Source: Halovenus carboxidivorans (lineage in GTDB: Archaea > Halobacteriota > Halobacteria > Halobacteriales > Haloarculaceae). From it: 64,000 nt of DNA. Positions 58,224-60,507 of this stretch are shown here, piece by piece (the stretch's first letter is position 1; every line of letters starts with the position of its first letter). The stretch lies in the NCBI RefSeq assembly GCF_009831575.1, contig NZ_WUUT01000001.1, positions 581,345 to 645,344 of the forward strand, in the 5' to 3' direction. A program made the position numbers and the translations under genes. The notes below the pieces were generated by a model. That model was not told the DNA's origin. It did not search any database and saw only the letters and a program-made list of their open reading frames with translations.

Positions 58224-58832
58224 CTACCGGTTGCGGGCGTTCAGAAACGGCACCGAGACCTCCTTGCCCGTCACGTGGGCGTTGAGTTTCGCCGCCGCCG
58301 GGGACTCCCGAATCCCCGTCTCGTCGTAGACCGTCTCGAACTGTTCGAGCAGCGCCGCGTGGCTCCGGAGGGTGTACTTCTGGTGGTACCCCTCCGCGGG
58401 GTAGAACTGATCGAGCGGTTCAATCCGCGTCTCGACGCGCTCGCGAGGGTGGTCGCTCCCCTCGATGTGCTCGATCACGGCCCCGCGCTGGTCGTCGCCC
58501 TCGGTGAGCACGAGGTTCTGGTACTGGCGTTTCGCGGTCTGACGGCGCGGATCGTGTTCCCGGAAGGCGACTTCGAGCAGGTCCCGATAGCTCGTCTGCT
58601 CGGGGTCGAACTCGATCTGCACGACCTCGGTGTGGTCGCCGAGGGCGCGGTAGGTCGGGTCGGCTCTGCTCCCGCCCGCGTATCCGACCCGGGTTCGGAC
58701 GACGCCGTCGCGCGCACCGAAGGTCGCGTCGGGACCCCAGAAACAGCCCAGTCCGAACGTCGCCGTCTCCGTCTCGTTCGGGTCGGGCGCCGAGCGGTCG
58801 TACTCCCGGAGGACAGTCGGTGTCACCGTCAT
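58224..58832 (-). CDS. msrA: peptide methionine sulfoxide reductase MsrA
   Basis: A 202-residue enzyme that reduces methionine-S-sulfoxide in proteins. The catalytic Cys is in 'FGLGCFWGPDATFG' near residue 30 and 'VGYAGGSRADPTYRALGDHTE' (split: VGYAGG, PTYRALGDHTE) follows. The C-terminal 'YHQKYTLRSH' near 150 belongs to the substrate side. No obvious resolving Cys is present, so a thioredoxin-independent or single-Cys mechanism is possible. The ATG overlaps the stop of the upstream kinase by 4 nt (ATGA), so translation is likely coupled. Confidence 0.93.
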   Translation of the reverse strand: MTVTPTVLREYDRSAPDPNETETATFGLGCFWGPDATFGARDGVVRTRVGYAGGSRADPTYRALGDHTEVVQIEFDPEQTSYRDLLEVAFREHDPRRQTAKRQYQNLVLTEGDDQRGAVIEHIEGSDHPRERVETRIEPLDQFYPAEGYHQKYTLRSHAALLEQFETVYDETGIRESPAAAKLNAHVTGKEVSVPFLNARNR

Positions 58833-60298
58833 TGTACCACCAGCAGATGTTGTCCCGACCCGACGCCCGTCCGCAGAACGTATTCGAGAGCTGTCCCGTC
58901 CCGTTCGATCCGGCCGTTGCCGTCGGAGAGTTGCCGGCGGCCGAGCGGGCCGGTCGCCGACCCGACGACGGCGGTGATCGGCCGACCGGCGAACTCCTCG
59001 ACCGGACAGTCCAACAGCGTCTCGGCGCGGTCGTTCGCTTCGAGGATCTGTCCGTCCGCCGCGAGCATGACCAAGCCGACCGGCGCGGCGTCGAAGATGG
59101 TCTCGTAGCGGTCCCCCGCCCGCGGGACCTGCGGTTCGTCGGGGTCGTCGTCGCTCGACTCCCCCTGCGGGAGCGTCAGCGTCACCCGCGTTCCGCCGTC
59201 CGTCTCGATATCCAGGTCGCCGCGGTGGCTCATCGCGACCCAGTAGACCGACCACAGTCCCAGACCGCTGCCGTGGACGAGTTGCGTCTCAGTCCCGGTC
59301 TGGAGCACGTCGCGCTCGGCGTCCGGAAGCCCCGGACCGTCGTCGGCTATCGTTATCACGGCGGATTCACCTCGCTCCCGCAGTGTGATCTCCGCGGTCG
59401 GGCTCTCACCGGCGTACTCCCCGACGTTCTCGACGAGTTCCCAGAGTGCGGTCTCGACGCTCGGATACGCCGGGACGACGAGTCGATCCGGCGCGTCGAC
59501 CGTAACCGAGAGGTCGGGGTAGTTCTCCCCGGCCTGCTCGACGATATCACCGACGACGGCGACCAGATCCGTCGGCCGGCGGTCGTACTCGGTGTTGATG
59601 CTCTTGCCCAGTTGGCGGGCCGTTTCGCTCATCCCGATCAGTTCGTCGGCGGACTCGACGATCCGCTCACACTCGGTGCAGTCGTCGTGTTGCTCGGCGT
59701 GCAGCCGGGCGTTCGCCCGGATCACCGTCAGTTCGTTTCGGATGTTGTGCCGCAGGACTCTGTCGAGGACGTTGACCAGGCTGGTCTGTCGGGCGAGTTG
59801 TTCGCGCTGGTGTTCGTGTTCGAGTTCGTGTTCGAGCAGTCGACTGACCAGTTCGGCAAACATCGTCTCGGCGTCCGAGAACGGATCGTTCCGGGCGTCG
59901 GCCGCGACGAAACAGACCGTCCCGTACGCCTCGTCGTTGACCGTCAGCGTCGTCCCGTGATAGCAGTCGAACTTGTCGGCCTCGACGCCGGTTTGCTGGT
60001 TTGGAATATCGTGCAGCGCCAGCGGTGACCCCCGCTCTAGGGTGTGCCGGCAGTAGGTGCCGCTGAGATTCGCCTTCATGCCGGCGGGGGCGAGCCCGTC
60101 GGCGTCGTCCGTGCTGACGACTGTCTCCCAGTGATCTGTCTCGGCGTCGATCCGCGTGAGAAACCCGCTGTCGACATCGAGATAGGACTTCCCCAGTTCC
60201 AGGGCGTCTTTCGCCTTGTCCTCGAACGGCGCGTCGCGCTTCATGATCTCGTAGAGGCGGTGGCGCGCTTCGTCCGCGCTCCGGATGGCCTGACTCAC
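58829..60298 (-). CDS. GAF sensor histidine kinase with C-terminal PAS, overlapping msrA
   Basis: A 489-residue soluble kinase of odd layout: GAF (about 20-155), DHp with 'RVLRHNIRNELTVI' (H184), HATPase (about 265-375; ELVENVGEY, DDGPGLP, GSGLGLWSVYW), and then a PAS domain at the end (about 390-489, 'IFDAAPVGLVMLAADGQILEAN'). PAS after the ATPase domain is rare. Cys occur at 83, 112 and 129 in the GAF and at 207 and 210 (CTEC) in the dimerisation helices. The start is GTG at 60298. It overlaps msrA by 4 nt, and no response regulator is adjacent. Confidence 0.9.
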   Translation of the reverse strand: MSQAIRSADEARHRLYEIMKRDAPFEDKAKDALELGKSYLDVDSGFLTRIDAETDHWETVVSTDDADGLAPAGMKANLSGTYCRHTLERGSPLALHDIPNQQTGVEADKFDCYHGTTLTVNDEAYGTVCFVAADARNDPFSDAETMFAELVSRLLEHELEHEHQREQLARQTSLVNVLDRVLRHNIRNELTVIRANARLHAEQHDDCTECERIVESADELIGMSETARQLGKSINTEYDRRPTDLVAVVGDIVEQAGENYPDLSVTVDAPDRLVVPAYPSVETALWELVENVGEYAGESPTAEITLRERGESAVITIADDGPGLPDAERDVLQTGTETQLVHGSGLGLWSVYWVAMSHRGDLDIETDGGTRVTLTLPQGESSDDDPDEPQVPRAGDRYETIFDAAPVGLVMLAADGQILEANDRAETLLDCPVEEFAGRPITAVVGSATGPLGRRQLSDGNGRIERDGTALEYVLRTGVGSGQHLLVVQ

Positions 60299-60507
60299 CG
60301 TCGATCACCTCCGGTAGTAGCAGAGTACCGCTCCGACGTAGCAGGGTTTCTCTTACCGACCCGCACTCGCGGGTGAACCCGAGGTACGTAATCCATCGGT
60401 CCCAGTTGGACGGCCCCGCCATTGGCTCTTTTGATCGGTGTGAGTCCGCCGACAGCTCTGGGTGGGACGGCCGTAACGGTCATACTCGCTCGAAATCACG
60501 TCACCGT

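Follow-up and report, generated by a model that had tools for sequence, protein, structure and literature searches.

A probably ordinary sensor histidine kinase whose gene overlaps a one-cysteine msrA in one Halovenus lineage

Does a histidine kinase whose gene overlaps a gene for methionine sulfoxide repair sense oxidants? Only a few of the many archaeal histidine kinases have a known signal, and a real operon of a kinase and a repair enzyme would be a test case. For a 64,000-nucleotide stretch of Halovenus carboxidivorans DNA (the window, on contig C1 of the 3.2 Mb source genome), a first-pass annotation had proposed an oxidant sensor made together with MsrA. While the gene overlap behind this proposal is kept in three Halovenus genomes, its redox part did not hold, as the cysteines of the GAF domain are family-wide and a CxxC motif is uncoupled from msrA. 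We consider that the kinase is probably an ordinary orphan, a cytosolic multi-sensor histidine kinase co-expressed with a one-cysteine msrA in one lineage. In the literature, we found nothing joining Halovenus with histidine kinases or archaeal GAF kinases with Msr. The kinase gene and its parts lie as follows:

58829..60298, minus strand: sensor histidine kinase, GTG start, 489 aa, with the layout GAF-HisKA-like-HATPase-PAS
60303..60312, minus strand: strong Shine-Dalgarno sequence GGAGGTGATC, 4 nt ahead of the kinase GTG, read directly in the sequence
59825..60211, minus strand: GAF domain, residues 30-158, with Cys83, Cys112 and Cys129 (Pfam, family alignment)
59588..59875, minus strand: dimerisation hairpin, residues 142-237 (alignment and AlphaFold)
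59747-59749, minus strand: phosphoacceptor His184, in RVLRHNIRN
59669..59680, minus strand: C207-T-E-C210 at the hairpin tip (alignment and AlphaFold)
59165..59458, minus strand: HATPase_c, residues 281-378 (Pfam)
58832..59110, minus strand: C-terminal PAS, residues 397-489, stopping at its last strand (Pfam and AlphaFold)

The product of 58829-60298 has the H-box phosphoacceptor histidine and the N/G-box ATPase that define a histidine kinase, and no transmembrane part was apparent in its sequence. HATPase_c (E = 1.2e-15) and PAS (397-444) scored above the curated Pfam cut-offs; HisKA scored under its cut-off, and H184 was invariant in the family. The GAF match was just under the Pfam cut-off (21.6 v 22.4 bits), and residues 30-158 were recognised as GAF by both profile and fold, with GAF matched in 17/17 family members scanned (best E 6.4e-14) and the secondary structure of the model in agreement. 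The cysteines of the kinase are at 83, 112, 129, 207, 210 and 431, leaving none from 211 to 430. When the model was used for a fold search, ordinary kinases (ZraS, CpxA) and phytochromes/LOV kinases were returned, and the search was uninformative. Considering that 48 stretches of the source genome matched the kinase, kinases are abundant there, and a scan of the eight flanking genes detected no receiver protein. In archaea, receivers commonly occur as stand-alone proteins (PMC5847659), and a signal bound by GAF and/or PAS would alter autophosphorylation of His184, from which the phosphoryl group may pass to an unlinked receiver protein. Haloarchaeal PAS/GAF histidine kinases in the published census (PMC5847659) are likewise cytosolic, with GAF and PAS domains, the H-box RHN.RN, HATPase and no linked response regulator, whereas in the Halovenus kinase the PAS follows the ATPase and msrA overlaps the gene.

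The position of the PAS (397-489, after the ATPase domain at 281-378), described correctly in the first pass, was compared across the kinase family. With a threshold of E <= 1e-90, family members were present in 17 genomes among 195 relatives and in 32 among 392 from the order, two samples that overlap; the same-genus Halovenus genomes were matched with an alignment query, a single-protein query having given no match. Among the 34 family sequences aligned, the open reading frame extended past HATPase in 29, as judged by its length, and PAS was matched in 16/17 members scanned, so that a PAS after the ATPase is the normal layout of the family. As such, the C-terminal PAS was rejected as an unusual trait. 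The LOV motif GxNCRF[LM]Q was present in 7/34 members, five open reading frames being cut off, and most relatives carried a further PAS, LOV or second kinase in the same frame after the first PAS. Judged by its sequence, the kinase is a member of a patchily distributed haloarchaeal family with an N-terminal GAF, a kinase core and usually C-terminal PAS/LOV modules.

Cysteines 83, 112 and 129 were indeed found in the GAF domain. In the alignment, Cys83 was present in 34/34, Cys112 in 30/34 and Cys129 in 33/34 family members, whatever the neighbouring genes. Outside the family, Cys83 and Cys129 occurred in every one of 13 other haloarchaeal GAF domains, and in the GAF stretches of the source genome (n=7, the kinase included) in 7/7 and 6/7, respectively. 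Since nearly all other haloarchaeal GAF domains sampled carry them, Cys83 and Cys129 are ordinary GAF residues, just as the first-pass annotation had cautioned for the TYCR and CY.G cysteines, and the GAF cysteines were rejected as a redox signature. Against the reading of an ordinary kinase, the wide distribution of the GAF cysteines does not prove them inert, as redox activity could itself be common in such a widespread domain.

The neighbouring repair gene and its junction with the kinase gene, where the shared ATGA was confirmed, are:

58224..58832, minus strand: msrA, peptide methionine sulfoxide reductase A, 202 aa, with a single Cys (Cys30, in GCFWGPDA), Pfam PMSR
58829..58832, minus strand: ATGA, kinase TGA stop and msrA ATG start, read in the sequence

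The msrA product matched PMSR in Pfam (E = 3.8e-35) with the catalytic Cys in GCFW, as required of an MsrA, and was just below the cut-off of TIGR00401 (105.1 v 108.1 bits). These two traits are shared with haloarchaeal MsrA (PMC5587910, PMC6211008), from which it differs in its single Cys, usual among MsrA relatives of the same subgroup, and in the overlap with a kinase gene. Because of this single Cys, it should need an external thiol according to the single-CysA scheme (PMC6211008), and would act as a one-Cys repair enzyme using that thiol. Nothing tying MsrA biochemically to the kinase was found.

Linkage between the kinase and msrA was detected in just three Halovenus genomes (the source genome G000, G005 and G013), at kinase identities of 57-70% and always with an overlap of 1-4 nt, the sequence being ATGA in G000 and G005 and TAATG in G013. 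This corresponds to 3/34 family loci and, among the msrA loci examined, to two relatives and the window. No other family kinase outside the Halovenus trio had msrA beside it, and ten further Halovenus genomes with a readable msrA upstream region had no family kinase before msrA. The msrA near four Haloarcula/Halomicroarcula family kinases was also rejected; it belongs to a different kinase, whose end lies ~0.95 kb away with a gene between in the loci surveyed. The pair is thus a trait of the Halovenus lineage, and the CxxC occurs in three Halovenus orthologues only. The first-pass annotation had asked for conservation of the pair and of CTEC across Halobacteria and had named missing linkage in relatives as evidence against itself; with the pair restricted to one lineage, that evidence has largely been found.

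The CTEC motif was placed at 207/210 as described, with one refinement of its setting in the dimerisation helices: in the AlphaFold model it sits at the hairpin turn that joins helix 1 (142-203) to helix 2 (208-237) rather than deep within either helix. This model is a monomer with a mean pLDDT of 75, lower around the H-box and moderate to low in the CTEC region. A CxxC at this position was found only in G000, G005 (CNEC) and G012 (CTEC), that is, in 3/127 distinct haloarchaeal H-box segments. The four orthologues form a clade with support of 100/100, in which G013 branches first, then G012, then G000 with G005 (midpoint root). Since 3/4 orthologues keep the motif and all other haloarchaeal kinases sampled lack it, it may be functional. 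One candidate is a thiol switch, in which an intra- or inter-subunit C207/C210 disulfide formed under oxidants alters activity and MsrA is the co-made repair arm. The clade-specific position at the predicted hairpin tip, the retention among orthologues and the neighbouring oxidative-damage gene speak for it. However, the CxxC does not track msrA: G013, which has GESG there, is linked to msrA, and G012, which has the CxxC, carries its msrA on another contig behind other genes. Neither set of candidate redox cysteines thus co-occurs with the linkage, the CxxC being uncoupled and the GAF cysteines everywhere. The redox Cys of RegB lies about 40 residues after its His, while the CxxC here is at +23/+26 and is followed by the cysteine-free stretch to 430. 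On this evidence, a thiol switch is unlikely.

The comparison with RegB/PrrB/ActS (PMC8191878) extends to a Cys downstream of the H-box, whereas no membrane part is apparent here, the GGXXNPF quinone motif of those kinases is absent and the CxxC spacing differs. The NCBIfam RegB/PrrB model gave 18.8 v 350 bits, over the generic ATPase part only. The kinase does not classify as a RegB-type redox kinase, for which a membrane domain carrying GGXXNPF and a redox-box Cys beyond the H-box are diagnostic. RdmS/MsmS of Methanosarcina acetivorans (PMC6944256, PMC11784639) are, like the Halovenus kinase, archaeal multi-sensor PAS and GAF kinases, and were proposed as redox sensors; they are without an H-box, which the Halovenus kinase has. 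The group that had reported redox-dependent autophosphorylation of RdmS has since reinterpreted it as unspecific and cysteine-dependent, occurring also in non-kinase proteins (PMC11784639), and an oxidant autophosphorylation assay on the Halovenus kinase therefore needs strict controls.

Alternatively, the hairpin tip could be a metal site, with the paired CxxC of a dimer coordinating zinc or iron-sulfur in a structural or sensory role. Two CxxC per homodimer would gather four thiols at the tip of the bundle, a geometry that we infer, while the AlphaFold model is monomeric with modest confidence in the hairpin region, the CxxC is absent in G013 and no literature was found on a CxxC in the DHp hairpin that could serve as precedent. 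Such a metal site is highly improbable. Overall, a redox or metal switch at the CxxC is possible but unlikely, and the full proposal, in which the switch within the phosphotransfer domain sets kinase activity in G000 and G005 with msrA co-made as the repair arm, is very unlikely. If it were true, the hairpin-tip CxxC would be a sensor site directly within the phosphotransfer domain.

In G012, the 505-aa CTEC kinase is ATGA-coupled to a 361-aa LOV histidine kinase (L075:3302-4387), whose best solved match is a blue-light receptor/FixL kinase chimera (E = 1.3e-47). Since its partner is a LOV kinase instead of msrA, the downstream partner of the kinase is exchangeable, and from this comparison the overlapping separate gene corresponds to the fused PAS/LOV module of relatives. 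The G012 CTEC kinase and LOV histidine kinase (L075:1788-4387) are a possible blue-light pair, LOV being fused to the same kinase in relatives.

The exchange of partners also favours a functionless adjacency, in which msrA came to lie behind a random kinase, one of ~48 in the genome. Of 73 msrA loci from other genomes, only those of G005, G013 and G002 had a kinase directly upstream, the last an unrelated 7TM-type; elsewhere msrA is on its own or lies behind other genes. Given 48 kinases, ~3300 genes (an assumed number) and half of the neighbours on the same strand, two independent kinase-msrA adjacencies compare with ~0.5 expected (P about 0.1). Kinases being so numerous, two such adjacencies are unremarkable, and adjacency alone is no evidence of function. 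On the other hand, the overlap is kept in three divergent genomes, which is modest evidence for co-expression, and the survival of the junction down to 57% kinase identity suggests some selection for joint expression. Furthermore, a CTTATCG box lies upstream of several unlinked Halovenus msrA copies, while before the linked copies neither this nor another TATA-like box was found; a sigma-70 promoter scan is not meaningful in an archaeal host. A functionless adjacency is therefore quite unlikely.

In the favoured reading of an ordinary kinase co-expressed with msrA, the C-terminal array ends after the first PAS in one Halovenus group, with the msrA start inside or at the kinase stop. Both genes would be transcribed together, msrA coming second in the operon, and termination-reinitiation probably couples msrA translation to that of the kinase, so that MsrA output would follow kinase output. 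Taken all together, comparison with relatives removes the argument for redox sensing, and what is left is an operon specific to one lineage. The case is of value mainly as a warning that neither cysteines in a GAF domain nor a single adjacency identifies a redox sensor.

Several neighbourhoods showed other arrangements. In G002 (L077:3421-5769), a gap of 46 nt containing a CTTATCG promoter-like box separates the end of the 7TM-type histidine kinase from msrA. In a genome of genus g6, which is Haloarcula-like (L243:2033-2545), a kinase ends ~0.95 kb upstream of msrA and an opposite-strand receiver-domain gene lies between. In G006 and G007 (L082:1720-2859, L083:4787-5782), msrA directly adjoins (TGA|ATG) the gene of a zinc-ribbon protein that, as judged by eye, is transcription factor S-like. 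By eye only, msrA seems to be immediately preceded by the 3' end of an msrB (RYCIN.. tail) in L205, L227, L230 and L232, and by that of a second msrA in L200, L202, L212 and L217. G005 and G013 likewise retain the divergent metallo-beta-lactamase-fold gene that lies beside the kinase (window:60505-61500) and has a lipoprotein-like start. Further along, window:61867-62976 encodes a protein with DUF7347 and DUF7351, several Cys pairs and an N-terminal start that is HTH regulator-like.
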